A DNA stretch of 64,000 nt from Zanthoxylum bungeanum (taxonomy: Eukaryota > Streptophyta > Magnoliopsida > Sapindales > Rutaceae), in NCBI GenBank assembly GCA_019454045.1, contig SKCR01031799.1:164285-228284 (forward strand). The letters run 5' to 3'. Each line of letters opens with the position of its first letter. The first letter of the stretch is position 1. This document shows, piece after piece, positions 532-25,977 of this stretch. The notes beneath the pieces were generated by a model. It worked only from the letters and a program-made list of their open reading frames with translations. It had not been told where the DNA came from and searched no databases. Both the position numbers and the translations under genes were made by a program.

Positions 532-913
532 TGATAAGTGCATGAAAATGTACTTTGAACATCGCTAATTCGACTTGATTATCAAGTATTTAATCTTAAT
601 TGTAGTTTATTTTAATGTTTTATTATTAGGAAGCAATAGAACATGAAGATTGGAGCAATTGTACATGTTTTGGGACCTAACAGATGCATTGGAAGCATAC
701 GGGAAGAGTGAAAATATGAAATTCAAAGCACCAGAAAAAGTAGCAAGCACCGCGACACCCTCTTTCTGGCGTCGCGGCGCCCTTCGGCAAACATCCCCAT
801 ATATGAAGGCCGTAAGTTGGGCACCGTAACACCACTTTCCGGCACCGCGGTGCCCCAATAAAGTTCCAGAAACTTAATTCAGACGTGTTTCACACACATA
901 AGGACTCCATGAC

Positions 914-2945
914 TATTGGACAGTTATGACCCATAGCGTCACTATTTGTACAGATCATGGTGTTGTTGTACAAATTAACTATGTGACAAGGAGATTGCGC
1001 TCTTATCATTTGTGATTAGATCACCTAGATGTATAAATGATAGGAGGTCCTATGATTAGTTCCTGGATTGAGATGATATGAGACAGTATCAGTCCTCGAA
1101 GGATTAATCATTAAATATCCCTAGTCGTAGTATTATCGAGACTGAACATTGATAATACGGAATAGACTAGTATTGCACTTGTGCGCGTTGTGGGAGCACA
1201 ACGGCATAGTTCTCATATATTTAAGTATTGGATACTTATGCAAGTGTGATAGGAGGTTGTGTTTACCGATGGTGCGGAAACAGCTTCACTCTGGATAGAC
1301 CCATCGGAATTCCATTGGTAGTATGACTATGTGTCTATGGAAGTCCGATATCAGGGTATGTGTATTTGGTCTTAACTTGAGACTTGCATCGCTAATACTT
1401 GCGACAATCGGTATGCTTTAGTTTTGGTCGTCCAGGGCTTTAACCGGTTCTGTGTACACCTCTGCTGGGTATATTGAGAATCGTAGTATTTTGGGTGTGA
1501 TATCAAGACGGAAGTATCACTTCAGTCATAGTGGAGATGATGTCACGTAGGATACGGTACTAGTGCTCTTAAGTACTGCAGTCATCGGGATATTATGACT
1601 AGGTCATGTATATCCGATAATAGAGACTAGTTACCAGGCATCCGACATGTGCTTCGTACGGGGCAGACATAGTTCCAGCCCCAGGCCTAGCACGTGACAT
1701 TCGATACTGGATCGCAATACGCAATACTACGTATACTACGCCTGCCATAGATTATATATTCCAGTAAGAATATTTCTGGAGAATTGGGTAGGCACGGTGC
1801 TTTGCTAGAAGCCAACCATGTCTTGTAAATCAGTAAGCACGTGGTACGAGGTACGCACGTATTCGGATAATCCGATGATCGTATTTACTGCCAACATATC
1901 CAGGGATCTCTTGGGTCGCTTCCCAAAGATTCACTGATGACAGTTGATTCGAATTAGAATTAATCTGGGATTAATTAAGAGAGAGAATTAATCTAGGATT
2001 AATTAAGAGAGAGAAAATTAATCTAGGATTAATTGAGGTATTATTTAATCTGGGATTAAATGTGTTCGGAATAGAGAGAACGCGATTAATTTGGAATTAA
2101 TCGGTAGAATAAATTTAATAGTTAAATTTTATTTTTCTATTTAATTTATTCGTATGGGCTAAAATTAATATATCGGATATATTAATATGAATTGGATTTC
2201 GTTACGAAATTAAAGTCGGACTTTAATACGAATGAACGAATTAATTTAGAATTAATTCGTAAACGACGTTCGTAATATATTTGTGAGACATCGTTATTTA
2301 ATTAAATTAGATTTAATTATTTAGCGACGAGAATTCGTTTAATCGGATTAAACGGATCCGAGCCACATCAAATGTTCGTAGAGACATTTGAATTTTGAAT
2401 TCAAATGTGGGGCCCACTTTAAATGTGGTAGTTGGGAGAGTGGTTGGCATTTATGCCATACCATCCACTTTCCAACCACCTTGGAATGGTTTTGGCAAAA
2501 CCATTTACCCAACCACCTTGTTTAGGTGAAAAAGGTAAATTGGCTTTTACCAAAACTCTTCTCTCTCTCTCATTTGTGTATGCTTCACACAAAATACACT
2601 TGGAACTAAATGGAAACCCTAATATCCTCCAAAATGGGCGTGAATATGGTATCCCTCCTCTCTTTGATTTTGTGGCAAAATCAAGTTAGCTAGCACTTCA
2701 AGGAATCAACAAAGGTGATAGGGAAACAACTCAAAGCTTGGAATCAACATTGAAGGTTGGATCTTGGAGATCACTTCTCACAACTCAAAGCTTGAAATCA
2801 ACAAAGGAAGCATCTTGGAGATCTTCTTCTCAAAAATTTTAAAAGCTCAAATACATTCAATGTAAGTAATTTGGCAACTTATTTTGAATTTATGAACATG
2901 TTTTCATGCTTATTAGATCCTTGGCATGTTCTAGGAACACTAACA
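914..2945 (+). mobile_element. Ty1/copia solo LTR inserted in element D
   Basis: About 2.03 kb, starting TATTGGACAG (consensus TGTTGGACA) and ending ACACTAACA. The flanking 5-mers are ATGAC (909-913) and AGGAC (2946-2950), a target duplication with one mismatch. It aligns along its length with the copia LTRs at 18121, 36039, 42862, 49705 and 56519. No internal copia sequence adjoins it, so it is a solo LTR. It carries the palindrome train at about 1952-2356. It lies about 10 bp upstream of the TATA box of the LTR it invaded. Confidence 0.85.
1952..2356. repeat. Palindrome train in copia solo LTR
   Basis: Successive short inverted repeats with a central TGG, TAG or single G: three copies with AATTAATC/GATTAATT arms, then one with TTTAATC/GATTAAA arms, then AATT-rich ones, ending with TTTAATC-G-GATTAAA near 2337-2352. 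The set matches the trains in the other copia LTRs but with a different number and different arms. Confidence 0.8.
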
Positions 2946-2955
2946 AGGACTTCCC

Positions 2956-2963
2956 TATATAAA
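2956..2963 (+). promoter_or_regulatory. TATA box of element D LTR
   Basis: TATATAAA in the context of a GGACTTCCC block. The same GGACTTCCC-TATAAATA arrangement occurs on the minus strand in the LTR of element C (about 38583-38600), which supports a core promoter. The copia solo LTR ends at 2945, about 10 bp upstream, so it has cut this TATA box away from its original upstream region. Confidence 0.6.
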
Positions 2964-3766
2964 CCCAAGCTCGTCCAAACCCTAGAAAATGAGAAGAAAT
3001 ACACAATAAAAAGTTGAAATCACATATTTGAGATAGAAGAATGAAGAAGCTACAAGCCAGACAGGATGTCTCTCCGATCTATCCAGGTTGTATCTCTTTC
3101 TTCTATGGAGAACTAATCTCCTAGGCAAAGCTAAGGATGAACTCTTGTAATTAAGTTCTTATATTCTTTTTTTTTATTCCTAAATACTCTTCAACGTTTA
3201 ATATAATTTATGAATCTTTTGATTATCAATCCATAGATTGTGTTTTACCAATTTGCATATATGAATAGTCATGTTTCTTCTGTGTGTGATTGGGGAACCC
3301 AGATGTGACTAGTAATGTTGTTTTATGAGTTGATGTTCTACTGCAGTATTGTCTGAGGGTATATTGTCGACGTTAGATAGGTCATAACGATAACATTGTG
3401 TGTTGTTAACATAGAGAAAATAATTCATCGATTACCTTAGAATTTAATATGTTTTAAATTGAAATATATTCTGATTGTTGGTTTGGGATGTGAAACCTTC
3501 AATTGAGTAATAAAATGAATCAATTACTGAATGTAGGGATTTGATACAAGAGGGATTCCTGACGCATTGCTGCTTTTCTCTATTGATATATTCCTATGTG
3601 TTTTGCATAATCTTTAATCTAAACTGCCAATTAAAACCTTTCTTTAATTAAGTTATTGCTAACGTTTTCATTAAGTGAATTAGTTCCTTGTAACCATCTC
3701 TCTGAGGAATCGACACCCCAACTATACTGCGATAACCGTAAGTACTTTTTGGGCGTAATCGGAGGA

Positions 3767-5289: not shown

Positions 5290-7226
5290 TCCTAGTTTTT
5301 GTTTTGATGGATGACTCGGAGTGGGATGCCATTTCCAGTCTTCATAGTGATTACCAGTCTTCATAGGTAGGATGTGTAGACAACAAAAATTTGCCTCCTT
5401 TGAAGTTTCTCCAAGCTCTCTTTTGATTGTATGTTGAGCTCCAAGCTTGATGAATGAATTCCAAACTCTTGGGATTGGTTTCCCTATCACCTTGGATGAC
5501 TCTTTGATGTGCTAGCAATGGAGATTTTTGCAACAAAAATCCCCTTGTACATGATACAACTCTCGGCAATTGGAGAGTAAAAGAGAGAGAGAGAGATGGT
5601 CACGCCCAAGTGAGAGAGAAGAGAGTGATGAAAAGTGTGAAGTGTTTTTGATTTTCCCAAAATAAAATGTCATATACCAAATCTCAAGTTGGTAAATGTC
5701 ACTCACCTTTTCAAAATAAAATAAGGAAGTGTAAACAACAAGTCATCACCAACTACTAACTTCCATTAACATAAAGTGATGAGAATGACATGTGATGTGA
5801 CTTGATGTGGGCCCCACTTTGATTCAAAATCCGAGTGGGCCCGCAAACACATTCCGGGCTCGAATTCGTTAATTCATAAGTAACGAATTTTCTGTTGCGA
5901 CGTAATTAAATCAAATTTAATTAAATAATTATGCCTAGCAAAATTACTATTAAAGTCGCTGGTGAATTAATTCTAAATTAATTCGTTCGCCCGAATTAAA
6001 ATCCAATTTTAATTCCGTTATGAAATCTAATTTCATTTATATATCGAATATATTATTTTATCGATTAATTCTAAATTAATCGTTCTCTCTCTATATTCGA
6101 ATTTTATCTCAGATAAATTTTTGCCTTAATTAATCCCAGATTAATTTTCTCTCTCTAATAATTAATCCCAGATTAATTCTGTTCGAGTCATACGTCATCG
6201 GTGAATCTTTGGGAAGCGACCCATGAGATCCATGGATATGTTGGCAGTAAATCCGGTCGTCGGACTATCCGAACACGTGCGTACCTCGTACCACGTTCTT
6301 ACCGATTTACAAGACATGGTTGGCTTCTAGCAAAGCGTCGTGCCTACCCAATTCTCCAGAAATATTCTTTTAAGGAATATATAATCTTTGTCAGGCGTAG
6401 TATACGTAATATTGCGTATTACGATCCAGTATCGATATCACATTCTAGGCCTATGGCTGGAATTGTGTCTGCCTCGTACGAAGCATATATCGGATCTCTG
6501 GTAACTAGTTTCTATAATCGATAATCATGACCTAGTCATATATCCCGATGACTGCAGTACATAAGAGTACCAGTTCCGTATCCTACGTGATCATCATCTC
6601 CATATGACTGGAGTGATACTTCCATCTTGACATCACACCCAATACACTACGATTCTCAGTATACCCAGAAGAGGCGTACACAGAACCTGTTAAAGCCCCG
6701 GATGAGCAAAACCAAAGTTTACTGATTTTCGCAAGTATTAGCGATGCAAGTCTCAGGTTAAGACCAAATACACCTACCCTGATTCGGATTCCCATAGACA
6801 CATAGCCATACTACCAATGGGATTCCGAGGGGTCTATCAAGAGCGAAGCTATTTCCGTACCATCGGCAAACAGAACCTCCTATTACACTTGCATGAGTAT
6901 CCAATACCCAAATATATGAGAACTATGCCGTTACGCTTCCATAACACGCACAAGTGTAATACTAGTCTATTCCGCATTATCGATGTCCAGTCTCGATAAT
7001 ACTACGACTATGGATATTTAATGATTAAAACATTACATGGATTAATATTGTCTCATATCTTATTAATCTGGTACTAATCATATGGTCTTTTATCATTTAT
7101 ATATCTCGGTAATATCCAATTACAAATGATAAAAGAGCAATTTCATTTGTTTGTCACATAGTTTATTTGTACAACAACACCATGTTCTGTACAAATAGTG
7201 ATGCTATGGGTCATAATTGTCCAACA
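5290..7226 (-). mobile_element. Truncated Ty1/copia solo LTR
   Basis: On the minus strand it begins TGTTGGACAATTATGACCC at 7226 and runs leftwards through the usual copia LTR landmarks, including the palindrome train at about 5865-6185. The expected terminal segment with ATGTAAGT and the ACA end is not recognisable, so the left border (about 5290) is a truncation. No target duplication could be found: the right flank is TGGAA and I see no matching left copy. No open frame inside it looks coding. Confidence 0.7.
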
Positions 7227-7860
7227 TGGAATTGCCTCCAAAGGTCATTGATGTGTTTTTGGCAGTACCGAACCGCCGATTCAGTTCGAGAACCGACGAT
7301 TCTCGGATCAATTTTTAATGGAATCGGAAGATAATCAAATTTTTTAGGTTTCGGTTGATCTGGTTCATAATCAAACTGTGACCGGGCCTAAATCGGTAAA
7401 ATCGGCTAACGTGATAAATAATTTTAACTAATTAAGTATTATAAAATAAAATATTTATACTTATGAAAACACTAATGATGAACGATCTGATTAATATCTC
7501 ACTAAAACTATATAATCCAATTGATCAACATATATAATTTCTATTAATTTTGTTTATATTATTCAATATACTTGCAATTGTTTATGTTTTTTTTAAATGC
7601 TTGCGCGTTTTCTTTCTTCGAGATTTGACACCTATAAAATCGAGATCTGGTAAATGACTTTTAATAGATCGTTTTATTTGTAAAAAATTCTGATACGGCA
7701 TCGGAATCAGCTCGAACATATAGGGTATCTCATGTGCTCTGATTTCTATGTAAAAGATTATGGCAAAAGCATTTTTGTCCGAAATTCCGCACGACATCAT
7801 TTTTAATTTAGCTTAGTTAGATATCATCAATTTGAATAAAATTTTTGGACATTGTGGCAC
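7227..7860. other. Unassigned AT-rich stretch
   Basis: No gene, LTR or tandem repeat that I can support. At about 7262-7310 there are clustered ACCGAACCGCC / GAACCGACGATTC motifs like the subterminal repeats of plant hAT elements, but no second inverted end or 8-bp duplication was found. The minus-strand frame at 7582-7800 has no recognisable domain. Confidence 0.35.
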
Positions 7861-8740
7861 TGGAACACCCTATCCGAGGCAAGATGTTATGGTACGAAAC
7901 AAAAATAATTCATCTCCCTGAATCTCAATTCTAAGGAAAAATGAACATGACAAACCCTAAAAATCGGACAACTTAAAACATTATCCAGTGTCAAAACGAT
8001 CTGTAATAAATATCAGATATACAAAAAGGACATCTGGTCCCAATCCAAGAGATCAATTCTCAACATCAATACTCAAGGTTTCGTACCCCCAATTACTTGT
8101 ACAAATCAAAACTTTTATTTACATACATAAAACAACGTGTATTGCACGATTCAAAACATACTAACATAACTCTTAGGCTCCTACGACCTCTCCCAAGACT
8201 TTAGAGTGGTTGATTGCAGTTTGGGTGATCCGTCGCCTCGAACATGACTTCCCAAAAGCTTATGTGGTTGACCGATCTGGTTTTCAACCTGCAAAACTAT
8301 CAAACTGTTGTGGTGTTAGTTATAAAACTCAGTAAGTTACCACACTCATACTATATAAGGAAAAAATAAATCTTGAAAATAGTACACATATCTAACATTT
8401 ATGCGTATATGGTTATCTATCAGAAAACCTTTAAACTTCATTCAATTTCTTACGCTCTCTAAATATACAGTTGTCTGGAAATACTTACATAAACCGATCC
8501 ACACATTCAAATTACATATACATATTTAGAAACGCACCTTGTGCAGATTTTCTGATTTTCTTCATAACAATCGTACCATAACCAACAAAAACAAACCAAA
8601 CAATGATATACCAATACACACACACACACATATGTCAAAGACTAACGAGAGAACAACCCAAGAATACTTCCACTAACCGTATATCGATACGATCAAATGA
8701 AGCTTGTATGACACTCATTATCTATTTTAGAATAGGTACA
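7861..8740 (-). mobile_element. Probable chromovirus-type gypsy LTR fragment
   Basis: Read on the minus strand, this stretch ends GGGTGTTCCA (plus-strand 7861-7870), close to the GGGTGTTACA end common in plant Tekay/Del chromovirus LTRs. It also contains a GTAACTTACTGAGTT block (about 8322-8337). No PBS of the TGGTATCAGAGC type follows, no second LTR is present, and it stops where element A begins. A (CA)n microsatellite lies at about 8615-8630. The call is an inference from end sequence and general texture. Confidence 0.35.
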
Positions 8741-8742
8741 AT

Positions 8743-10200
8743 ATGAATTCCTTACGAACAGATTTCATAACCAAAACTATCAACATACGATCTAAATCAC
8801 CAACCAAACTGATGGCAAGGCTCGAGAATGAAGAAACAGCTGGCAAAGAACTGACAATCAAAAACACATTTCCAGATGAACAGTTGTTTGCCATTAAACA
8901 ACAGGAAGTCCCTTGGTATGCTGACTATGTCAACTATATAGTATCAGGAAAACGGCCGTTGGAATGGACAACTCAGCAACGAAAGAAGTTCTTCAAAGAA
9001 GTCAAGCACTATGTCTGGGATGAGCCGTACCTGTTCAAACGATGTGCTGATCAATTACCGAGACGGTGTATTCCACATGAGGAGGTCAATAGTGTCTTGC
9101 AACACTGTCATTCATCACCATATGGCGGACACTTCAATGGAAACAAAACTGCAGCCAAAGTCCTACAATCAGGTTTGTTCTGGCCCACTCTTTTTAAAGA
9201 TGCTTATCTATTCGCTCTTTAATATGACAGGTGCCAGAGAACGGGAAATATTTCCATAAGAAATGAATGACCTTTGCAAAACATTCTGGAAGTGGAGATA
9301 TTTGATGTATGGGGTATTGATTTTATGGGACCATTTGTTCCATCATTCGGAAACCTGTACATACTGGATACAGTAGACTACGTCTCCAAATGGGTTGAAG
9401 CGATTGCACTATCGTCCAATGATTCAAAAGTGGTGATCAAATTCCTTAAAAATAATATTTTCACTCGCTTCGGGACACCTCGGGCGATTATCAGTGATGG
9501 TGGCTCACAATTCTGCAACAAATACTTCGATGTACTCCTATCCAAATACGGAGTTACTCATAAGGTTGCCACTGCCTATCATCCACAGTCAAATGGACAG
9601 GTGGAAGTTTCAAACAGGAAGATCAAACAAATCTTGGAAAGAACCGTTTGATCAACAAGGAATGACTGGTCTAAAAAACTAGATGACGCATTATGGGCTT
9701 ACCGGACAGCTTACAAGACACCTATTGGTATGTCCCCATATCAAATGGTGTATGGAAAAGCGTGCCATCTGCCAGTTGAGCTTGAACATAAGGTGTACTG
9801 GGCACTGAAGAAGTTGAATCTTGATCCACAAGCTGCAGGAGAGAAAAGACTTCACCAACTCAACGAATTGGAGGAATTTTGCCTACAGACTTATGAAAAT
9901 GTGAAACTGTACAAAGAAAAGACCAAGAGATGGCATAATAAAAAAATAGTGCGCAGACAATTGGAGCCAGGACAACAGGTGTTATTATACGATTCACAGC
10001 TGAAACTGTTTCCTAGAAAACTGAAATCAAAGTGGTCAGGTCCATTTGTGATTACTCAGGTGTTACCATACGGAGTTGTTGAGATATACAACCCCAAGTC
10101 CAACAACACATTCAAAGTTAATAGCCATCGTGTCAAGCACTATTGGGGAGAATCATTTGAGCGACAAAAAGAAAGTGTCACACTTTCAGATCCAGCATAA
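8743..10200 (+). pseudogene. Athila-like integrase (C-terminal pol), broken by stops
   Basis: Integrase inserts element cDNA into chromosomes. One frame runs the whole length, broken only by in-frame stops at 9220-9222 (TAA), 9268-9270 (TGA) and 9649-9651 (TGA). Domains in order: a linker with PWYADYVNY; the HHCC zinc finger around GGHFNGNKTAAK with its CQ partner after the first stop; the catalytic core with WGIDFMGPF (first Asp), ISDGGSQF (second Asp) and a later [10 protein letters not shown] segment carrying the Glu; then a C-terminal basic region ending VKHYWGE. The spacing fits Athila integrases. The first ATG lies in non-homologous flank, so 8743 is only the edge of the open frame; homology starts near 8800. 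RT and RNase H are absent. Confidence 0.88.
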
Positions 10201-10240
10201 CATTTGGGCAGTCACGTCTAGCTGACGACATTAAACTTAG

Positions 10241-10258
10241 TGCTAGCTGGGAGGTAAC
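10241..10258 (+). other. Conserved post-pol block
   Basis: GTGCTAGCTGGGAGGTAACC with TTAAACTTA just before it. The same block occurs after the coding part of element B (minus strand, about 33040-33075) and element C (minus strand, about 40178-40210). It therefore marks the junction between pol and the 3' region in this group and helps align the deletion derivatives. Confidence 0.6.
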
Positions 10259-10396
10259 CAATGTAATTTGTGTATATATTATGATTTGGTGTGTTTTATT
10301 TTAGGTGTTAGTTTTTAAAGGTGAAGTCATTTCAAGATGGAATAAGCTCTCGCAAATATTCACAATCAATTTCTTTCTCTCCCTCAAAATTCTCTG

Positions 10397-10885
10397 ATGA
10401 AAGTCTACAAAACTCGCTTGGAACGGATGAGACTCCTGATGATAAAAGGTATTCCTAATGACATTCGTTGGGTAATCGAAGCACGGGTCCGATTAGCAGG
10501 TGAGTATTCTGATTCTTATAATTCTTATTTGCCTGGTTTTGGAAGAAGCACATATGCAAAGAAACGTAGAACTAAGCAAATGGGTGTTTGTTACAAATGT
10601 GCATGCTGGAATTGCAATGCTCGTTGTTGTTCTTTAGGAATGGTTTTTGATAATTGCGAAGATAAAATTAAATTCATTAGGGATGGCTTGAGTAAAGAGT
10701 TTTTAGATGATATATCTTCGACTCTTGAGACGCATCCCAATGAATATGTTCATATAGCCATCCGCAAATTACATACACAATTCCAAAAAGAAATACAACA
10801 GTTAAGTCTCGGGAATCTGACTCAAAAAGACCATGTTTGCCAATTTATAAGAAAATTGGATGGGAAACTTTCCCCTGACGCATAG
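10397..10885 (+). CDS. Unrecognised Cys-rich protein in the env-like position
   Basis: An open frame of 162 codons between integrase and the LOG gene, where Athila elements often carry an extra ORF. I do not recognise the protein. It has a basic N-terminal half, a segment YLPGFGRSTYAKKRR (residues 44-58), then a Cys cluster with C65, C68, C70, C73, C77 and C78 (CYKCACWNCNARCC), which could bind zinc, and a polar helical-looking C-terminus. No signal peptide or membrane segment is visible, so an envelope role is unlikely. A polypyrimidine-AG lies upstream (10292-10304), compatible with spliced expression. Element B keeps only fragments of it (about 32570-32900, minus). It may be an element protein or a second captured host fragment. 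Confidence 0.5.
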   Translation: MKVYKTRLERMRLLMIKGIPNDIRWVIEARVRLAGEYSDSYNSYLPGFGRSTYAKKRRTKQMGVCYKCACWNCNARCCSLGMVFDNCEDKIKFIRDGLSKEFLDDISSTLETHPNEYVHIAIRKLHTQFQKEIQQLSLGNLTQKDHVCQFIRKLDGKLSPDA

Positions 10886-11070
10886 ACGTCAATCAAGCTG
10901 TAAATTATTGTAAATATTATATATCTTTGTCTTTTCCTAATAATTGTGATTTGTTTTGTTAGTTTCTTTTATTTTCTCCGACATGATCCAGAGCTTTTTG
11001 ACCTTTCACGATTTATTTTACTGTTTAACTAATAATTGTCATTCGGCAGGTACTAGTGCTATTATTTTTA

Positions 11071-11084
11071 CTCACCCTTTTCAG
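11071..11084 (+). promoter_or_regulatory. Putative 3' splice acceptor before LOG
   Basis: CTCACCCTTTTCAG followed by GTGTTAT, 52 bases before the LOG ATG at 11137. The same CTCACCCTTTTCAG stands before the LOG copy of element B (minus strand, 32634-32647). A pyrimidine-rich run ending CAG fits the plant acceptor consensus. It could serve a spliced subgenomic RNA or derive from the host gene's 5' leader. Confidence 0.4.
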
Positions 11085-11136
11085 GTGTTATAAATTCAAC
11101 TCATCATTGCACTTTTAAAGACATCCAGAGTAAAAC

Positions 11137-11782
11137 ATGGAAGCCACTTCAAGAAGACGATTTGAAAACATCTGTGTGTTTTACGGTACTACTGTTGGTG
11201 CTAAACCACAATACGTAGCAGCAGCACAGGAATTGGATCAAGTCTTAGCTGCAAGGAATATGCACTTAGTATATGGCTCTGGGAATCTTGGACTAATAGG
11301 GATCATTTCAAAAGCTGTACAGGAAGGAGGCAGTCAAGTATTGGGAATCATTCCAAAACCATTGGCGGAGGCGAATCTTATTGGACCATCAAACGGAGAG
11401 GAACTAATTGTGCCAGGTATGTTTGAATGACTGATAGAAATGGTTAACCGTGCTGATGATTTTATTGCTTTGCTATGTGGCTTGGGCACAATGGAGGAAA
11501 TTTTTATCTTGGGAAAACCTGAACATACACCAGAAATCGCTTGGACTGTACAATGTTGATAAATTTTATGATTTTCTTTGTGTGTTTCTTGATGATGCCC
11601 GGAGAAATGGGTTCGTGTCAAAACCTATAAAAGAACTCATCTTCACTGCCAGAACTGCCCCAGATTTAATTGACCAAATCTTAGCCTTTGAACCACAAAT
11701 TGACCCTATCATTTCAAAGATAAATTGGTCCGAGAACGATCGTGGTAAGAGGCGTCGGATTAATCTAGATCTTAACCTTTAA
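11137..11782 (+). pseudogene. Captured LOG-type cytokinin riboside 5'-monophosphate phosphoribohydrolase
   Basis: LOG enzymes release free cytokinin base from its nucleotide in the cytosol and nucleus. The frame opens with ICVFYGT, followed by YGSGNLGLIG (residues 46-55, the Rossmann nucleotide-binding loop, usually YGGGSVGLMG) and VLGIIPKPL. A TGA at 11428-11430 follows PGMFE, where active LOGs have the MHER Arg. The PGGxGTxxE signature is degraded to LCGLGTMEE. An 8-base deletion relative to B's copy then shifts the frame, and the rest continues at about 11510-11782 (NIHQKSLGLYNVDKFYDFL onwards), ending KRRRINLDLNL. Total length is about 215 codons, normal for LOG, with no introns, so capture was probably through RNA. 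It lies between integrase and PPT inside element A. It cannot encode an active LOG as it stands. Confidence 0.88.
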
Positions 11783-11850
11783 CTTTTCATTTAGATATAG
11801 AATTTCAGCTAACCAGGTACTATCTTCTAAACTCTTCTTCTACTATCTTA

Positions 11851-11891
11851 GACATTGGAGACAATGTCTCATTTAGGTTTGGGGGAGGGGA
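11851..11891 (+). other. Hairpin plus internal polypurine tract
   Basis: GACATTG (11851-11857), loop GAGA, CAATGTC (11862-11868): a perfect 7-bp stem. It is followed by GGTTTGGGGGAGGGGA (11876-11891), which looks like a polypurine tract. Element B has the same stem with loop GGGA (minus strand, about 28420-28445), and C has a related one near 39945-39985. It lies about 1.24 kb before the LTR, so it is not the PPT adjacent to the LTR. Confidence 0.6.
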
Positions 11892-12330
11892 TTAGTTGAC
11901 TAGTATTTTTTTTTATTTTGTATGATGTTTTTATTTTTATTCCAAAATTTTACAAAAAATACAAAAAAAATTGAAAAATTTTACAAAAAATCAAAAAAAT
12001 AATTAGTTTTTTTGTGATTTTAATTTGATTAATCAGGTGAAATTGGTGCGAAATAGCTGTGTTAGGAATTGCCACTCTTGAGACGTATCTCAACTTATTT
12101 CGGAACAAGTTAATTTTTATTTATTTCTTTTTGAATTATTTAATTTGTGAATTCTCCATAAAACTGACTAAAATGGATCTTCATATGCTCAGTTGACAAG
12201 TATTATCAACATGCATGGTAACATACGGACATGAGAAGTAATTGATGAGTTTGTAATATTCAGTGCTATAGTTTAATTGGAGGAAGCATCTAAAAAAAGC
12301 GATGGGATAAAAAAATGTGAAAACAAACGT

Positions 12331-12572
12331 CTGAGTTCCGAGTTATTAAGTCTGTAAGGGTGTCTTAACACCTAGTGCCCTAAAGCCAACTAGTTTGGGA
12401 GTCACTGGCCCAAAGCTCGTTACATGGATCGAAGATGTTGCCAAAAAAAATATATATCTGAAGTCTGAGTAATTAAGTCTGTAGGGGTGTCTTAACACCT
12501 AGTGCCCTAAAGCTAATTGGTTTGGGAGTCACTGACCCAAAACTCGCTACATAGATGGAAGATATTGTATAT
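12331..12572 (+). repeat. Two-copy tandem repeat, about 110 bp
   Basis: Units at 12331-12442 and 12464-12572 share TCTTAACACCTAGTGCCCTA and a following TTTGGGAGTCACTG segment. Both units are also present in element B on the minus strand (about 17801-17900 and 17930-18020), so the duplication predates the split of A and B. Confidence 0.8.
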
Positions 12573-12630
12573 AAATAAATAAAAAAAAATCAATCAAAAA
12601 TCAAGAAAAAAAATCAAAAAAATTATTCAA

Positions 12631-12855
12631 TTGCTTAAAAAAGGTGTGAAATCTGATATAACTTTAGGACAAAAATATTACTCTCTTTTCAACTGCACTT
12701 GTGAGTATTATAAGCAAAATGAGTTGATTAATATTTTGTTGGCTGTGTATATGGAGAATGGTAAAAATAATCGAAGAATTTACTTATTCGGTAATTTAGA
12801 AAGAAACAAAACAATTATTGACTTAGATAAGAAGTTTCACCCGTTTAGTCACTAA
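12631..12855 (+). CDS. Small ORF of doubtful coding status
   Basis: 74 codons rich in Lys, Asn, Tyr and Ile, with no recognised domain. The homologous stretch in element B (minus strand, about 17540-17760) is well conserved as DNA but is broken by frame changes and stops. It therefore behaves like untranslated 3' sequence rather than a gene. Listed because it is the only open frame in the region. Confidence 0.15.
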   Translation: MLKKGVKSDITLGQKYYSLFNCTCEYYKQNELINILLAVYMENGKNNRRIYLFGNLERNKTIIDLDKKFHPFSH

Positions 12856-12936
12856 CTTTTTTATTCTCTTTTCTCTTGTCTTTTTGCTTTTGTGTGCATT
12901 AGTTTTACTATCTTTTTACTTTTATAAGACGTTTGT

Positions 12937-13056
12937 GGGTATCGTCGCTGTAAACCCTCACGAGACTACAACTCGTCCACTAGGGACACCTAGGGGTTTA
13001 AAGGCTTGTTGCATACGCTAAATGCAACCGTGATCCCTACGAAAGTGGCTTAGTTT
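12937..13056 (+). other. Conserved 120-base block before the PPT
   Basis: Nearly the same sequence stands just inside the 3' LTR in elements A, B (minus strand, about 17309-17437) and C (minus strand, about 39004-39131), although the LTRs of C differ from those of A and B. In A and B it can form a hairpin GTTGCAT (13008-13014) with ATGCAAC (13022-13028) and a short CTAGG/CCTAG hairpin. It may be a cis-acting RNA element; function unknown. Confidence 0.55.
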
Positions 13057-13115
13057 AATTTTAATTGTTTCTTGTATTTTATTTTTTTGTTTTGCTCGAG
13101 GACTAGCAAAATGTT

Positions 13116-13128
13116 AGGTTTGGGGGTG
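13116..13128 (+). other. Polypurine tract of element A
   Basis: AGGTTTGGGGGTG directly before the LTR start TGATGAGCG. It is the usual second-strand priming site of gypsy elements. Element B has AGGTTTGGGGTTG in the same place (minus strand, 17237-17249). Confidence 0.8.
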
Positions 13129-13692
13129 TGATGAGCGAAAAATATATCAATATTTACCGCCCCTTTTACTTAATATTTTGTTTAGTTTCTCGGGTTTGAT
13201 GAACGTTTTGATATGTTTTAGTTTATTTTGCATATGAAATAATATTGGGACTCAATGGAATCATTTAGGATGAAATATGGGTCAAATAAGGGCAAACATT
13301 GGACTTGACATATTAATTTTGGAGATTGGAAACTTGAAAGGGCGTTCTAACGAATTGCAGTTTCGGAAATTCCAATTTTGCGCAACTGTCGTATTTTGGG
13401 CATAAATTTTTACTTCGATATGGGATTGATCTGATTCAAGTTCAAGATTAAAGAAGACTCAAAGATTTACAACTTTTAAGAACAAAATAATTTCAAATTC
13501 TGTATATTTCATGACCTAAATTGATCAAACATCCGGAAGTGTGTTATGTGTAATTATTAAAGTCATTTTCAAAGCAAAAAAATAAATAATAAAAATAGTC
13601 AAGCTACCACCAAACATGACAGAAATTAATAATGGATTTGGTGGAGCAATTAGTGGAGCATTTAGTGGATTTGGTGGAGGCAAAATTTTACC

Positions 13693-13700
13693 TATAAATA
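13693..13700 (+). promoter_or_regulatory. TATA box of element A LTR
   Basis: TATAAATA in CCTATAAATACC, about 565 bases into the LTR. It matches the position of the TATA box in B's LTRs. Confidence 0.55.
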
Positions 13701-14269
13701 CCAAGCCATTTCATTTGTAAATTCATACTTTCTTATTTGAAATAACTTAATAATAACTAAGAAGATTGTATCTTGTTTGTTTATTTACAGCTTTCAGTAA
13801 TTAATTTCCGCTTTGGCACTTTCTTTTCTTGACTTTTCAGTTTTTACTTTCCGCAATTTACTTTTACGCACAGTCATTTTCTTTCTTTACTTTTTCAGTT
13901 TTCACTTTTCAAGCAATGAGGAGGTAACTCCCCCTTGCTATGGTAAAAGGTAAAGCTTTTATTATTGCTATTTAGATTAATCTCCTCTAATTATAATATA
14001 ATAACTATTTAAAATCTGACTTAACGAGGATACCGCCATATTGGTCGGTTGGTAATTAATTATAAATTGGTTTTAACCTGACTAAGCATGGATACCGCCT
14101 GATTGGTCGGTTGGTAATTAATTATTAATTTGACTTAATCAAGATACCGCATATATGGCTGGTTGGTAATTATCACGCAAAGTTAATATATTATATTAAG
14201 GGAGATATCTAAAATAGTAGTAATAAAAGTGGATCATTTTACCTCAGCATATTCTTTATTGTACTTTTA

Positions 14270-14465
14270 CTTTATTTACTTCAATAATTTACTTTTCACC
14301 AATTTACTTTTACTTTATTTACTTTCAACAATTTACTTTTCAGCAATTTAATTTTCAGCAATTTACTTTCAGCAATTTACTTTTCAGCAATTTACTTTCC
14401 AGTAATTTACTTTTCAGCAATTTACATTCCAGTAATTTAATTTCCAGCATTTACTTTATGTATTT
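14270..14465 (+). repeat. Tandem 16-17-bp repeat in A's LTR
   Basis: About ten imperfect copies of TTTACTTTTCAGCAA, some with CCAGTAA. It is absent as an expanded array from the B LTRs. Confidence 0.75.
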
Positions 14466-15899
14466 TCTTTTATTTAAGTTTCTACTACCCGTAAATATGT
14501 GTCGTAACTAAGCCAGTTATCAGGGGTTGTGATGAAATCCAATATCACCGGTTTATAAGGGGCTAAATTACAGTTTGGGTAATATAAAGGTTTATTTATT
14601 GAGCCTTAATCCTAATACTTTTTATTAACTGGCTATTAATAAAATTGAATTGGTAAACTTAAAATGAACTTTGAAAAGAGAATTTAGGTTAAATACCCTA
14701 AACTCAATAGCTCACGATCTTCCTTGAGGATAGATAACCCTTAATAGATTTCCTTACAGGATAGGAATATACCTGTCGGGCGGGGGTAACCATAATTGGA
14801 ACTTAATCTTAATGAATCCAGATAACTTGGTTAACATAGGAATATGATTAATTGGGTATACTGGGTATTTGTATTTGACCATCGGAAGAGGCTTTTACAT
14901 AATTTCGTGTTCCAGGTTAATAAACCAATATATTACAAAAATGTAAAATAAACACTTCATCTTTTAAAAAAAAGATATTGGAGGGATTCACAACCTTAGA
15001 TAGTTTTATAAATTTGAATTTTCTTCAATCTACTTTCAAGCAATTTATTTACATGTTTCAATTTTAAAGTCACCACCCAATCAAACAATCAATCTATTAG
15101 ATACTTGTAAATATTTAACTTCATAAATTGATAACAAAAGGTTTTAAGTCTTCGTGGGATCGATACTTTTTATACTACTTGAATGATACGTGCGCTTGCG
15201 TTATACGCGTGTGATTACACACTTGTCAGAATGATTGCTTTTGGTTGGTTGAATGTGGATTTGCTAAATAAATAAAATAAAGACACAAAAGAAAATACTA
15301 AAAAAATAACAAAATACACAAAATAGATAGGGTTGTGACTCCACATAATATTATTCAAAAGATGAATTGATTCTCTTATATATGTGTAATAAATTAATTT
15401 GCTAAACTGGAACACGAAGTTATGCAAAAGCCTCTGTCGATGGTCAGATGCAAATACCTTGTGTAACTCAATTAATCATATTCCTATTTTAACCAAGTTG
15501 TCTGAATTCATTAAGTTCAAGTTCCAATTATGGCTACCCACGCCCGACAGGTATATGTGTATCCTGTAAGGAAATCTATTAAATAGGTTATTTATCCTCA
15601 AGGAAGATCGTGAGTTATTGAATCTAAGGCTAAAACCTAAAATCCTTTTTTTTTAATTTCATTTTAAGTTTGCCACATCAATCTTTTTGGTGATCAGGCA
15701 ACAAGAAGCATTAAGCTTAAGACTCAATAAACAAACCAATGATTTACCTAATATATAATTAAATCAATTATTAAGTATGTGAATATTGTGTTTCGTCACT
15801 TCCCTAGAATAAAAATAAAATGATGGGGGTTAGGGGATCCACTTTTAGAAATCTCACTTTATTATAATATGGAAATTGTTATTGTTACCCATTTAAGTT

Positions 15900-16325
15900 G
15901 AACCAGCCATAAAGACGGTGTTATTATTTATCCATAAACCAGCCATATAGGCGGTAATCATCTGTCACCTAAAGACCGACCTATAAGCGGTGTCACATTA
16001 TGTTACATAATTAAAACCAGCCATTAAGGCGGAATCAACTTTTAATCCATATTATTAAATTACAATTTCCATATTATAATTAAAGTGAGATTAATATACC
16101 TTTACTATTTCTAATTTAGAAATCTCCCTTATTATAATATATAAATCTGCGTGATAATTACCAACCAGCCATATAGGCGGTATCCTGATTAAGTCAAATT
16201 TATAATTAATTACCAACCGACCAATATGGCGGTATCCAATTTAGTCAGGTTAAAACCAATTTATAAATAATTACCAATCGGCCAATATAGTGGTATCCTC
16301 ATTAAGTCAGATTTTAACTAGTTTA
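15900..16325 (-). repeat. Array of ACCAGCCATATAGGCGGTA-like units in B LTR
   Basis: Seven or so imperfect units spaced roughly 40-100 bases apart, variants of ACCAGCC/ACCGACC, then an ATATA-type centre, then GGCGGTATCC. The same array is in B's 5' LTR (about 35300-35690) and, with three clear units, in A (about 14030-14185). It lies downstream of the TATA box, so it would be transcribed. Confidence 0.7.
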
Positions 16326-16594
16326 TATATTATAATTAAGGGAGATTAATCTAAATTATAAAAGTAAAAGCTTCACTCTTCCCCAGCAGTAAATTAATTA
16401 CTGACACATAAAAGAAAAGAAAATAAAATAAAATAAAATAAAATTTATTGCAGAAAGTAAAAGTGCATAATTAAAAGTACTAAAAGTAAAGATGCTTAAT
16501 TTAAATTACAAAAACTTAAAACACAACAAGATGCAATCCTTAAAGTCCTTACAAAACCCAAGGAAGGCAAGATTTGAATTCTGAAATCGAGCTG

Positions 16595-16602
16595 AATTTA
16601 TA
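16595..16602 (-). promoter_or_regulatory. TATA box of B 3' LTR
   Basis: TATAAATT on the minus strand after AGGCC, with the same box at 35971-35978 in the 5' LTR. It lies about 635 bases into the LTR, downstream of the CG-rich block and G-box array. Confidence 0.5.
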
Positions 16603-16618
16603 GGCCTCGGTAAACTTG

Positions 16619-16683
16619 GCGCGTCGCGACGCGACGCGATAACTTTTACGCTTCGCGACGTGACAACTTTTGCGCGTCGCGAC
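16619..16683 (-). promoter_or_regulatory. CG-rich GCGTCGCGAC repeats upstream of TATA
   Basis: Overlapping copies of the palindromic core GTCGCGAC within about 65 bases, in an otherwise AT-rich LTR. They sit 20-90 bases upstream of the TATA box. Related cores occur in the LTRs of C (38722-38735) and D (about 770-781). Confidence 0.55.
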
Positions 16684-16728
16684 AAGAGTAGATCATCGAC
16701 ACATGGTGGATTGGCTTCGCGAGATCGT

Positions 16729-16982
16729 GACACGTGTCATGCTTTCATCGGCAACTGAATTATTACTGTCGGCAGCATATGATGCCGACACGTATCCCGG
16801 AACACGTTAGCATGATTCACTGAGATGTTGACACGTGTCAGGTGAATTTTAGCATCGATGATGATTGTCGACAGCATGTGATTATGACACGTGTTCGGCG
16901 CATGTTAGCATGACACATTTTAGCAAACGGCGTACGTTAGCACGTCGTATTTTAGCAAACCACTCAGAATGTGACACGTTTC
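16729..16982 (-). promoter_or_regulatory. G-box array in B LTR U3
   Basis: Five GACACGTGTC-like motifs at 16729-16738, 16787-16796, 16830-16839, 16886-16895 and 16973-16982. Two match exactly and the others differ by one base. Many TTAGCA hexamers lie between them. CACGTG is the plant G-box/ABRE core bound by bZIP and bHLH factors. The array sits upstream of the TATA box, where an enhancer would act. Confidence 0.65.
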
Positions 16983-17236
16983 CTGGCGTATTTTAGCAGA
17001 CGGCGCACGTTAGCGGTCGCGACACAGAAGGCTTGCGCGTCGCGATGGGTGAAATTACAATTTTGCCCTTCTATATGTTTTTCACTATTTTGGCTCCAAA
17101 TTGCTTCCAGAGAGTCCTGAAACTTTATTTATCTACAAAATAACACAAACACACATCAAAATATTCACAAAAATCAAGAAACTATACATAATATTAGGTC
17201 AAATGAGTGGGAAATAGTGACATTTACCACTCATCA

Positions 17237-18120
17237 CAACCCCAAACCTAACATTTTGCTAGTCCTCGAGCAAAACAACAACATAAAATAACATAAACAT
17301 CTTTAAAATAAATTTTAACTAAGCCACTTTCGCAGGGATCACGGTTGCATTTAGCATATGCAACAAGCCTTTAAACCCCTAGGTGTCCCTAGTGGATGAG
17401 TTGTAGTCTCGTGAGGGCTTACAGCAACGATACCCACAAACATTTTACAAAAGTAAAAAGATAGTAAAACTAATGCACACAAAAATAAAAAGACAAGAGA
17501 AAATAGAATAAAGAAGTTATTGACTAACCAAATGAAACTTCTTATTCAAGTTAAGAGTTGTTTTCTTTGTTTCTAAATTACTGAATAAGTAAATTCTCCG
17601 ATTATTTTTACCATTCTTCATATACACACACACCAACAAAATATTAATCAACTCATTTTTGCCCACAATAGTCTCAAGTGTAGTTGAAAAGAAGGTAATA
17701 TTTTCATCCTAAAGTTATATCAGATTCACACATTTTTTAAGCAATGGAATATTTTTCTGATTTTTTTTATTTTTATTTATTTATTTATATACAATAACTT
17801 CCATCCATGTAGCGAGTTTGGGTCAGTGGCTCCCAACCAGTTGGCTTTAGGGCACTAGGTGTATGACACCCCTACGGACTTAATTACTCGGATTTCCGAT
17901 ATAACATATATTTTTTATAACATCTTTTTGATCCATGTAGCGATCTTTTTTGGGCCAGTGACTTCCCAAACCAGTTGGCTTTAGGGCACTAGTGTTAAAC
18001 ACCCCTAACGGACTAACTCGATCTCAAATGTTTTTTTTTATCCCATCGTTTCTTAGATGCTCCTCCAATAAACTAGAGCACTGATATTACAAATCTATTC
18101 AATTACTACTCTGTCCATAT
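17237..18120 (-). other. 3' non-coding region of element B, right before its 3' LTR
   Basis: Homologous to about 12270-13128 of element A in reverse. It holds the PPT, the conserved 120-base block and both copies of the roughly 110-bp tandem repeat. It is interrupted at 18120 by E1; the remainder resumes at 28086. Confidence 0.75.
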
Positions 18121-20232
18121 TGTTGGACATTATGACCCATAGCGTCACTATTTGCACAGATCATTGTGTTGTTGTAGCAAATTAACTATGTGACAAAGAA
18201 ATTGCACTCTCATCATTTGTGATTAGATCACCATAGATATATAAATGAAGAGAGGTCCCTATGATTAGTTCCTGGATTGAGATGATATGAGACAGTATCA
18301 GTCCACGAAGGATTAATCATTAAATATCCCTAGCCGTAGTATTATCGAGACTGGACATCGATAATGCGGAATAGGCTAGTATTGCACTTGTGCGCGTTGT
18401 GAGGGCACAACGGCATAGTTCTCATATATATAAGTATTGGATACTTGTGCAAGTGCGATAGGAGGTCGTGTTTCACTCGATGGTACGGGAAACAGCTTCG
18501 CTCTGGATAGACCCTTCGGAATCCCATTGGTATTATGACTATGTGTCTATGGGAGGCCGAAATCAAGGTAGGTGTGTATAGTCTTAACCTGAGACTTACA
18601 TCGCTAATACTTACGATAATCGATAAACTTTGGTTTTGGTGGTAGGGGACTTTTAACAGGTTCTGAGTACACCACTTCTGGGTTTATCAGAGAGTCGTAG
18701 AGTATTGGATGTGATGTCAAGACGGAAGTGTCACTTCAGTCATATTGGAGTTGATGTCACGCAGGATACGGTACTAGTTGCTCTTGAGTGTTGCGCAACC
18801 AATCGGGATATTGTGACCAGGTCATGTATATCCGATTATAGAGACTATGTTACCAGACATCCGATATGTGCTTCGGACGGGGTAGACACTTATCCAGCCC
18901 CAGCCCTAGCACGTGATTATCCGATACTGGACCGATATGCACAATACAATTGTATACTACGCTTGATACAGATCTTAATATTCTTATGAGAATATGTCCG
19001 GAGAATTGGGAAGACTTGGTGCTTTGCTAGGAGTCGACCTTGTCTCGTAAATCGGTAGAACGTAGTACTTGGTACGTACGTGATTCGGATACACCGACGA
19101 CCGTATTTACTGCCAACATATCCGGGGATCTCATGGGTCGCTTCCCAAAGATTCACCGATGACGTATGACTCGCACTTATATTAATCTGGGATTAATATG
19201 ATGAGAGAGAGAATTAATCTGGGATTAATTTCGGAGACATTTTATCTAGGATAAAATATCAATTGAAGAGAGAGAAACATTGATTTGGAATTAATCGAGG
19301 AATTAATATATTTGATATATTAAACGAAATTAGATTTCGACGCGGAATAAAATTAGATTTTAATTCGGGCGAGCGAATTAATTTAGAATTAATTCGTTAG
19401 CGACGTGAATAATAATTCCGCTAGGCGCAATTATTTAATTCTCGTCGCGACGGAAATTAGTTAATTCGGAATTAGCGAATTTGGGCCCGAAAGTGTTTGC
19501 GGACACATTCGTATTTTGAAACGGGTGGAATCCGCAAATCACATCGCGATATCTCATTACTTGACACGAATAGATGATGGATGTATCTAGTCACCTTTAA
19601 GGGATGATACATTGTCTCTACTCTCAATGTGAGGTAATGATGGCAAATGATGTATTTTTCCTTGGAGGAAAACCTTTCACGGAAAATGAAGGGTTTTTAA
19701 TTAAAAAAAAATTCATTTTGTATTTGATACATTTTGGCTTTTCATTTGGCCACTGACTCACGTTTTTGTTAAAAAACAAAAACACAAGAAGTGATAAACA
19801 CTCTCTCCTCTTCTTCTTCTCCCCTCTCTCACGACATTTTCTGGTTTTGCAAAGGCAGTGAACTGCCGAACAAGATAAAAGAAAATGGAGGGAAGCAAGT
19901 GTGTTTTGTGGCAAAACAAGAGTGCTAGCACACTCCGGGTTCAATGCGAAGGTGATAAGGGAAGTATACCCATGAGCAAGGAACGTTTTGATGAAGCTTG
20001 GAGCTCGTTTTTCTTGATCAAAATGGAGCAAAACAGAAGCACAAAACCGAATCTGCAGCAGTGGGCGCACTTGACAGTGAACTGCCGTGAGCAGTGGCAG
20101 TGGGCAGTGAGTTCGTTTTTTGTGCCAAATCGCATCTCAACCGCTCGATGTAAGTATTCCGCACTTAAATCGTTGTATTCGCTTATGATTCATGCTTGAG
20201 TTTTGATCTTGGGACCTCTAGAAACTCCTACA
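18121..20232 (+). repeat. 5' LTR of E1
   Basis: 2112 bases, TGTTGGACATTATGACCC to AACTCCTACA. It contains the palindrome train at about 19179-19480. Near its 3' end are a GGCAGT-GA-ACTGCC inverted repeat (about 19853-19866) and a conserved ATGTAAGT. The several open frames inside (such as 19624-20070 minus and 19885-20199 plus) show no known domain and are reproduced in the 3' LTR only because the LTRs are copies. Confidence 0.9.
19179..19480. repeat. Palindrome train in E1 5' LTR
   Basis: First unit ATATTAATC-TGG-GATTAATAT at 19179-19199. Later ones include ATTTTATC-TAG-GATAAAAT, TTAATATAT-TTG-ATATATTAA, CGAAAT-TAG-ATTTCG and CGAATTAATT-TAG-AATTAATTCG. Arms change from unit to unit but stay complementary. 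Confidence 0.85.
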
Positions 20233-20233
20233 A

Positions 20234-20251
20234 TGGCATCAAGAGCTTAGG
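20234..20251 (+). other. Primer-binding site of E1
   Basis: TGGCATCAAGAGCTTAGG, one base after the LTR end. It resembles the TGGTATCAGAGC site complementary to initiator tRNA-Met used by most plant copia elements, with one substitution and one extra base. The mismatch may weaken priming or be a late mutation. Confidence 0.65.
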
Positions 20252-23180
20252 TTAAAAGCATGAAAAATGTTAGGGCTAAAATTTGGGCAAACTTGAATTT
20301 GAGCATGATAAATGAAATTGGATGGATTTGTATGCTTAATTGTGTTTGTATTGAAGATTGATTATGTCAATTTGAAGAAAATATGATTGGATCAATTTTT
20401 CCCCAAATTGCTACCTTGGCCGAAAATTGATATTGATTTAATGTCTTGGGATTTTTGATTTTTGACAATTGGAAGTGTTGGAAATCATTCGGGATGATGA
20501 TTTAACGTCAATTGCGGAATCAATTGGATTGAATTCGATTTGGACGAAAAATCCCCAAATTGCCAAGTATGTCATGAAACTTTAAATTGGGTAAAATTGA
20601 TTTGAGCATGCAATTATGAAATTGGATGATTAAGTATGCTTAATACATGTTTAATTGATGATTGGTTGGATCAATTTGATTAAATATTGTTTGGAACAAA
20701 TTTCCCCAATTTTGAAAGTATGTCATGAAACTTGAAATTGGGTAAAATTGATTTAAGCATGCAATTATGAAATTGGATGATTAAGTATGCTTAATACATG
20801 TTTAATTGATGATTGGTTGGATCAATTTGATTAAATTTGGTTTGGAACAAATTTGCCCAAAATCTTATGTTGGCCGAGAGTTATGCCCCTTTGTGTTCTT
20901 GGTGAATTTTGATTTTTTGAAACATTGGATGTGTTGAAAATCATTAGGGTATATTGATTTAATGTCGAATTGGGTTTAATTGGATTGAAACAAATCGGAC
21001 ATGTAATTAACCTTATTGCCAAGAATAAAGTAAAGCATGTAATGGGTTTGATTTTAATCTTAATGTGTTGGACATGTGATGATGAAATTGAGTATGATTA
21101 ATTGGACTAATTTAGTGTTTTGGAAATGTTGATTTAGTTGATTAATCATGTAATGCACTTTAAGTAATTAAATTGTTAAATTGGATTTATGTAATTTAAT
21201 TATTTGAGGCCTTAAATTGGATTTGGGCTTCTAATGTTGTAATTGGGCCTATTGGGCTTGATTTTATCAAGTTGGGTTTAGGCCAAATGGATTGGATCCA
21301 ATTGGGCCCAAAACCTTAACCATAAAGCCCAAATGCAACTAATGGACCTTTGTAATTTAATTGGGCCTAATGGGCCAAAATTAATTTAAAGGCTTATGGG
21401 GTAAATCCCGGATTGGACTTTGGTTGCGGGTTTGACCCGAGTTGACCAAAAGACCACGCCTTAAGAAATTAATTAAAAGCCCATTAGACTTTAATTAAAT
21501 TAATATTGGATATTAATCGGGCTTTGAGACCCGTAGCGATTAAATTTGGAATTTAAGTCGAAAAGGTTTATTAATAAAGTGTGATATTTAAGTTGGAATT
21601 AAATAGTGAATTAGAATTAAATACAAATTGAATTGGATTTAATTGTGTAGTTTAATTTAATTCGGGAATTCGTACTTTAAGTACTTATCCGCAAAAACGA
21701 GTTTGACTCGAACAAAATCAAATCGTTGTTTGAACATTGGATGATCACATAATTATCAGATTAATTAATTTGATTAGATTGATTGATAGCATGCTTATAT
21801 GAGTGAATACATGGTTGTGATGCATGAATAATGTATATCGGATGGATATTAGATGGGTGGGGCAATTTTAGAAATTGTTGTAATAAATTCGATTTATTAA
21901 ATTGGACCTGCGTGTCCAGCCTTATCACCTTCATTCTCTTTGTATTCTCTTCTCACCTATTCCCCTCTATGTATATGAGGTTTCTTTAGAAGTGTAGTGT
22001 AACGGGTAGAAGTAGTACAAGTGCTAGCTTGAGTGAGAAAGGGAGAGATTTGATCTAGGATCAATGTAAAGTATCCATCCGCATATCATTATTATTTTAT
22101 TTCATACTCGCTTTATTATGTATTTAGAATGCATGTTTAAGGGTGTATGATGATGAGACCTTAACAAAGATAATTAAATTGGTAGCCAATTTGCACGCGA
22201 AAAACCCTCGTTCTATATTAAGCAAATATCCTTCCATTGAATGATTCTTGTTCAAGATCCGAAGTTGGCATTGGTTTGTTTTTGACCAAAGTCAAGACCT
22301 TTGTCAATCAAGGATGTACTTGAATCATGAGAGTTTTGTTGCATATCGGTGTCGTCCAAATCGTGATTTTTATTGACCAAAGTCAGATCACTTTTTGTCC
22401 AATGACATTGATTACGAAACTTTCCTCGTCAATGGGTCCCGCTTAACTGGAATCATTAGGTTTGTGTTTGGCCAAAGCCAAGGCCTAAATGATTCGGAGG
22501 ATAGGGTTAGGAAAATGTATTGGATACATTGACATTATACATATGTTTCGGACTTGGATGTCCACCTAACCGGATCTAGGAATTGGATGAGATCCAATTG
22601 ATCTGAGATCTACCTAGTTAATAGCATACAGCTTTTTATTGGCCAAAGTCAGGGTTGTGTGTTATTTAACGGGATCCTAGCCCACTAGGAAACACGGTTT
22701 CCCGAGTACTCCACAGAGGGTTAGAGGCTCGACGAAAAATAGTGGGAGGCAAGTATTGAATTTGCAACATTCGTTCGAATACTCGCTAAACGCGCTCATT
22801 TAATTTATTTCGTCGTTATATTAAATGTTAGTTAGACTAATATTTAAATTGTTGTTTTAATAAACAGTTGGACTGTATTATACTTGATTATATATAATTG
22901 GATTATATTAATCAATATATTTGAATTAATTAATTTCAGTTTACAGTTGATTTTATAATTGGATTATAGTAATCAATGTAATTGAGGTTAATTAATTTGG
23001 ATTATATTTGATTATATAGTTGGACTATTATAATCATTATAATATATATAGTACCACTAATCGTTGATTAAATAGTTGGACTATTGTAATCAAGATAAGA
23101 AATTGAAAAGTTGGATATTTAAAATATAATCTGGGATTAAAATATTTTAAATGATTTAATTTTCAAATTGGGAATAAATA
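20252..23180 (+). other. Long leader of E1
   Basis: About 2.9 kb of AT-rich, TTGGAT-rich sequence without a credible gene. From about 21960 it aligns with the shorter leaders of the tandem copia array (46086-47050 and 51646-52611), sharing the block ATCCATCCGCATATCATTATT and several GGCCAAAGTCAAG segments (about 22260-22660). The first 1.7 kb have no counterpart in those copies. Confidence 0.6.
20567..20850 (+). repeat. About 150-bp tandem duplication in E1 leader
   Basis: Units beginning GTATGTCATGAAACTT at 20567 and 20718 are nearly identical for about 130 bases, ending TTGGATCAATTTGATTAAAT. Confidence 0.85.
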
Positions 23181-25966: not shown

Positions 25967-25977
25967 AAGTGGGAGAT
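25967..25977 (+). other. Polypurine tract of E1
   Basis: AAGTGGGAGAT directly before the 3' LTR. The same tract precedes the LTRs at 49705 and 56519 and, on the minus strand, at 60822. Confidence 0.8.

Follow-up and report, generated by a model that had tools for sequence, protein, structure and literature searches.

Results

Two Athila-type elements with a LOG-like gene

We analysed a 64,000-nucleotide stretch of Zanthoxylum bungeanum DNA (the window), in which a LOG-like gene lies between the integrase and the polypurine tract (PPT) of an Athila-type LTR retrotransposon, element A, as the initial annotation had placed it. Element B carries a second copy on the minus strand. The two elements comprise the following features.

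Element A
8731–10200, plus strand: integrase in three open pieces (zinc-binding 8731–9222, core 9271–9648, C-terminal 9652–10200)
10337–10885, plus strand: NABP-like gene, 182-codon frame (stop at codon 3, open 10346–10885)
11137–11782, plus strand: LOG-like gene (ATG at 11137, stop at 11780–11782), matched by PF03641 in pieces
11729–11782, plus strand: C-terminal basic and LxLxL tail of LOG (ending in KRRRINLDLNL), the LxLxL tail being shared with relatives
11878–11890, plus strand: PPT
11891–15225, plus strand: 3′ LTR, ends approximate, from homology to LTR parts of B

Element B
37919–38467, minus strand: 5′ LTR, further part (89.5% identity, 552 columns)
34487–36034, minus strand: 5′ LTR, part next to the primer binding site, ends approximate (92.6% identity to 15229–16663, 1436 columns)
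34469–34486, minus strand: primer binding site, TGGCGCCGTTGCCGGGGA
32792–32919, minus strand: NABP-like gene remnant (66% identity to A 10636–10784, 149 columns, E 5.8e-8)
32340–32566, minus strand: LOG-like gene, 5′ piece (86.4% identity to A)
28937–32339, minus strand: nested 3.4 kb insertion in LOG (TG..CA ends, 5-bp duplication CTTTG)
28511–28934, minus strand: LOG-like gene, 3′ piece (83.5% identity to A)
28405–28417, minus strand: PPT
15229–18118, minus strand: 3′ LTR, distal part (proximal part about 28404–28087, with a 10 kb element at 18119–28085 between them)

The integrase of element A matches PF17921 (E 1.5e-6) and PF00665 (rve, E 1.5e-17), with no Pfam match for its C-terminal piece at 9652–10200, and the DNA at 9108–9819 is 66.9% identical (E 1.4e-55) to the integrase of a related element, L001, described below. 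The search for upstream parts of element A (gag, RT) was confined to positions 7000–11000. We found the order by which the Athila lineage (OTA, non-Tat) is recognized, a retroviral-type integrase followed by an extra 3′ ORF and a PPT; in the L001 ORF, which we take to start at the end of RH and which runs into INT, a Pfam scan for an additional RNase H (aRH) returned only H2C2 and rve. No integrase frame was seen by eye in the short interior of element B. Its primer binding site is presumably of the tRNA-Asp type, the stretch at 36342–37918 between the two parts of its 5′ LTR is a member of an LTR-like family that recurs in the window, and the 3.4 kb insertion in its LOG is probably a solo LTR.

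Flanking sequence is homologous on both sides of LOG, at 10938–11364 and 11362–12225 in A, and the PPT follows LOG in both elements (from 11878 on the plus strand and from 28417 on the minus strand), both as initially proposed. The two elements have opposite orientations and different interiors; we read them as separate insertions and reject a segmental duplication as the source of the two copies. The second copy was correctly recognized, with its end, given as 28936, placed two bases too far (28934). We saw no intron in either copy, in agreement with the first reading; the split of the gene in B is due to the nested insertion.

Several further repeats surround the two elements. The 10 kb element inside the B 3′ LTR has 2.1 kb LTRs (18119–20232 and 25976–28085) that are 98.96% identical, and it looks young. 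At 15216–15229 the 3′ LTRs of A (end at 15225) and B (end at 15229) abut tail to tail, and the B LTR lacks its last part there; since the B LTR is cut where the ends abut, A may have inserted into it. Two 4.7 kb stretches (44790–49458 and 50326–55004), 93.6% identical, lie in a dense nest of LTR-like repeats and carry a copia-type gag (PF14223 within 47158–48036), and an open 441-aa frame on the minus strand at 40755–42080 is gag-like by eye, without a Pfam match.

Domain content, defects and selection in the LOG-like gene

Membership in the LOG family was found by PF03641 (Lysine_decarbox, the LOG domain) in pieces: the N-terminal half of A matches with E 6.1e-12 and the middle piece of B with E 6.1e-20, while the third piece, the C-terminal half of A (E 8.8e-6), scores 26.4 bits, marginally short of the cutoff (27). 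Among solved structures, the best matches come from Arabidopsis: 2a33 (E 1.8e-27) and 1ydh (E 2.2e-24). The PGGxGTxxE site reads LCGLGTMEE in one window copy. LOG enzymes generate active cytokinin. Both window copies are dead pseudogenes: A has a TGA at codon 98 (11428–11430) and a frameshift near 11505, and B has the same TGA at codon 98, frameshifts and the 3.4 kb insertion. At this position both copies thus lack the arginine that most relatives retain and that we take to be the catalytic residue; we likewise assume active-site roles for the other residues scored below.

We compared the A and B frames over 205 codons, excluding codons 122–130, the stop and two codons that B lacks, and obtained a dN/dS of 0.28 (bootstrap 0.18–0.45), with 19, 19 and 50 differing sites at codon positions 1, 2 and 3. 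This ratio suggests that the LOG frame was under selection until late. The window NABP-like frame compared with that of L001 gives 0.26 (0.16–0.39, 181 codons). Judged by these ratios, purifying selection acted on both frames as the compared pairs diverged.

The TGA at codon 98 is common to both LOG copies, at a position that holds arginine in 108 of 118 aligned relatives (205–255 aa, among the matches listed). A common ancestor that already carried the stop is unlikely, dN/dS being low on both sides of it, albeit with wide intervals (0.30 [0.15–0.67] before and 0.25 [0.12–0.48] after). Either the stop arose by parallel decay at a CpG, our guess being CGA to TGA in each copy, or something stranger took place.

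A gene resembling flexivirus genes directly upstream of LOG

The initial annotation did not mention the gene that precedes LOG in element A (10337–10885), which resembles the nucleic-acid-binding (NABP) or cysteine-rich (CRP) proteins of flexiviruses. To our knowledge, this gene family is known only from plant RNA viruses. The A frame is 86% identical to the relative P0186 over 182 residues, and DNA 10370–10866 is 74.6% identical to L001. Taken alone, the window ORF stays below both curated Pfam cutoffs, with 20.6 bits against PF05515 (Carla_C4, cutoff 23) and 16.5 bits against PF01623 (Viral_NABP, cutoff 20.9). Our search returned 97 relatives (weakest E 5.8e-16; 44 of them 180–206 aa long), those with names coming from Xanthoceras, Populus, Rhamnella, Citrus and Acer. 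Among 21 of the 97, hand-chosen from the longer ones (alignment A3), 20 match PF05515 (best E 1.9e-7) and 18 match PF01623 (best E 1.4e-7) at E ≤ 0.01. P0186 exceeds both cutoffs (28.5 bits for PF05515, 24.5 bits for PF01623), and L001 exceeds that of PF05515 (34.2 bits) and stays below that of PF01623 (19.8 bits).

The relatives carry an AKKRR-type basic patch followed by a cysteine cluster; scored among the relatives themselves, C-x2-C-A-x3-C-x3-C is present in 34 of the 44 relatives of 180–206 aa and in 58 of all 97. The AlphaFold model of the protein is weak (pLDDT 62.7), and the one from a deeper alignment, which comprised L001 and 55 of the 97 relatives, is weaker still (58.4). With the first model, the viral fold search (best 50 of 61 rows) is led by flexivirus proteins, which account for 20 of its top 24 rows, none at E ≤ 0.001; 18 of these 20 are named as nucleic-acid or RNA binding proteins or silencing suppressors, the others being a 15kDa protein and one HP, and the remaining four rows are three unnamed proteins and a closterovirus p23. 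With the second model, 7 of 29 rows are flexivirus proteins, the top four included, again with no E ≤ 0.001. A profile search against the PDB returned nothing at E up to 1, and the alignment found no relatives among viral contigs.

Evidence for related elements with and without LOG

L001 (positions 1–3330 of DAIEQH010000041.1) is a plant-type retroelement in a bacterial MAG titled Candidatus Nomurabacteria, apparently a contamination. Its integrase (496 aa) and NABP-like (182 aa) frames are both open, and a PPT-like run follows at 2601; LOG is absent from the stretch between the NABP-like gene and the PPT. The spacer after its NABP stop, RAFKPLLDVKLEEDVSHNHNYL, recurs nearly identically in the Acer gene model P0272 between an NABP-like part (49% identity in the protein search) and a LOG, which by eye this model joins. 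From this likeness, related elements with and without LOG seem to exist; as these sequences suggest, the 3′ cassette of the Athila-type group comes in variants, the NABP-like gene with LOG or without it. Since the NABP-like gene of L001 stands without LOG, LOG was probably added later, the alternative being its loss in L001. The Rhamnella model P0274, also compared with L001, joins by eye an integrase C-terminal part and an NABP-like part. Both models lack much of the finger region, and neither has a Pfam NABP match. Two pairs of LOG and NABP matches in a hand-picked list come from contigs of equal size (6562; 836), a hint of linkage rather than proof.

Relatives, tail and tree of the LOG-like protein

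The LOG unit belongs to a large family: an initial protein search gave 81 relatives, with named ones in Dipteronia, Xanthoceras and Acer, and a profile search gave 7934 matches above threshold, cellular LOGs surely among them, of which the best 120 were taken (named matches from Populus and Xanthoceras). Most relatives come from contigs, mainly short ones, and it was their open frames that led to their detection. Among the matches listed, 106 of 120 LOG relatives of at least 205 aa are exactly 217 aa long, and 108 of the 120 carry LxLxL within their last 12 residues; this constant length and tail is shared by relatives with as little as 49% identity to P0006. In the 118 aligned relatives, again among the matches listed, E121 is kept in 113, T118 in 111 and K74 in 100, R98, G114, T118 and E121 occur together in 93, and PGGxGTxE[ED] is present in 83 and missing in 35, so that a good part is altered or decayed. 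The LOG alignment found no relatives among viral contigs.

We calculated an unrooted tree from 38 hand-chosen rows that include only two cellular LOGs, both from Arabidopsis. Supported branches set apart both the poplar group (16 rows) and the main group (12 rows), each making up one whole side of its branch. Seven of eight Sapindaceae gene-model rows group with the two Arabidopsis LOGs and may be element or host proteins; the eighth (P0024) joins the main group. If rooted on the Arabidopsis branch, the tree fits a single capture of LOG but does not prove it. The Populus proteins P0115, P0139 and P0149, named LOGL10, are 217 aa long, and P0115 and P0149, the two whose ends were read, have the LxLxL tail. 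Poplar entries named 'LOGL10' may therefore represent element proteins that were mistaken for host hormone genes.

Discussion

A probable two-gene 3′ cassette in Athila-type elements

What we observe directly is the gene order in the window, the homology, the selection in pairwise comparisons and the existence of uninterrupted relatives. As a single joint explanation we consider it probable that a group of Athila-type elements in rosid plants carries a two-gene 3′ cassette with LOG in second place, that both proteins served living elements, for which the purifying selection on both frames argues, and that the NABP-like gene is homologous to the NABP/CRP genes of carla-, tricho-, viti- and related flexiviruses. 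The cassette would run from integrase through an NABP-like gene that shares descent with flexivirus CRPs to a LOG-like gene and the PPT, LOG presumably being host-derived and intronless with an added basic, EAR-like LxLxL tail. LxLxL is an EAR-type motif.

Cytokinin activity, silencing suppression and nuclear location of the cassette proteins are putative. The NABP-like protein may act in the nucleus as an RNA or DNA binder and as a silencing suppressor or transcription factor. LOG could locally raise active cytokinin, such that the element would be expressed and copied in dividing cells, and its tail may recruit it to nuclear co-repressors. With both genes, an element could dampen silencing and benefit dividing cells, through which new copies get into the germ line.

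The same genes might be passengers, captured without benefit to the element and still open in some copies by recency. That both window LOGs are broken, that B keeps only an NABP-like remnant and that 35 of the 118 aligned LOG relatives (among the matches listed) lack PGGxGTxE[ED] would suit passengers, but neither the dN/dS of LOG (0.28, A versus B) and of the NABP-like frame (0.26, window versus L001) nor the length and tail of LOG, constant among relatives down to 49% identity to P0006, is expected of them, and we give this reading a small chance. We also think it unlikely that LOG kept its fold and changed its role, serving the element with its basic LxLxL tail as a nuclear nucleotide-binding co-repressor adaptor. 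Such a role is suggested by the tail in 108 of 120 listed relatives and by the Arabidopsis matches, in which the aligned part ends before it, at residue 205 of AtLOG3 and 206 of AtLOG8; against it, the presumed active-site residues R98, E121 and T118 are mostly kept (108, 113 and 111 of 118), jointly with G114 in 93, among the matches listed.

For the NABP-like gene, the resemblance could reflect convergence of a basic zinc-finger peptide in place of common descent with flexivirus CRPs. The matched region is short, the structure models are weak, and the cysteine pattern C-x2-C-x4-C-x3-C could not be aligned to the viral ones. Yet P0186 matches both families and L001 matches PF05515 above curated cutoffs, and flexivirus proteins lead the fold searches, which leaves convergence only a slim chance.

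Within the preferred explanation of a two-gene cassette that served its elements, a further step can be proposed tentatively, at somewhat less than an even chance: the Athila-type lineage may have assembled a virus-like module, first a flexivirus-type suppressor or transcription factor gene and later a cytokinin-activating LOG with a repressor tail, at the place of env. In other Athila elements env occupies that place. If this is true, a gene for manipulating the host has passed between plant RNA viruses and LTR retroelements, and host cell division is under the direction of a retrotransposon. A conserved retrotransposon gene of a virus-type family, beside a hormone gene, makes the flexivirus CRP origin testable and provides an actual example of a plant retroelement that may carry genes for counter-defence and host growth.

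Comparison with known systems

The plant LOGs AtLOG3 (2a33) and AtLOG8 (1ydh) resemble the element LOG over the whole domain, with about 200 residues aligned; the element LOG differs in lying inside an element, in showing no intron and in its added basic LxLxL tail.

Steinbauerova et al. reportedly described in 2011 'two Athila-like elements with similarities to LOGL4 gene'. PMC9289625 finds LTR elements with a LOG (YgdH) domain in two Citrus species, C. sinensis and C. clementina, and, if its filter is not applied, in Populus trichocarpa, a result it calls 'in line with' Steinbauerova et al. 2011. Such LOG-carrying elements are therefore already described in outline, contrary to the initial suggestion that no LOG-carrying LTR family had been described. 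The Citrus and Populus elements are likewise Ty3/gypsy elements with a LOG domain and very likely belong to the same group as the window elements; the main-text section of PMC9289625 on LOG does not mention an NABP-like gene, the tail, selection or gene order. Forward ORFs between integrase and the 3′ LTR are likewise known as the extra ORFs of Athila and further OTA elements. The survey by Neumann et al. 2019 (PMC6317226) reports such ORFs from 250 codons upward, a threshold at which genes of 182 and 217 codons would be passed over.

For NABP/CRP genes in LTR elements or other retroelements, we found no earlier description among the matches listed, most subscription papers being out of reach. 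Viral CRPs are described in PMC12172455 as silencing suppressors and pathogenicity factors, and p12 of CVB also as a transcription factor that induces hyperplasia. The NABP-like protein shares with the flexivirus NABP/CRPs (PF05515, PF01623; for example CVB p12) a helical N-terminal part, a basic patch and a cysteine cluster in the Pfam-matched region, and its 182 aa compare with 69–225 aa in the flexivirus fold rows, fragments included. Unlike a flexivirus CRP, it is encoded by a retrotransposon and continues, past the matched region, into a conserved C-terminal part. The larger structure, a flexivirus-type gene together with LOG in an Athila-type group, looks new.
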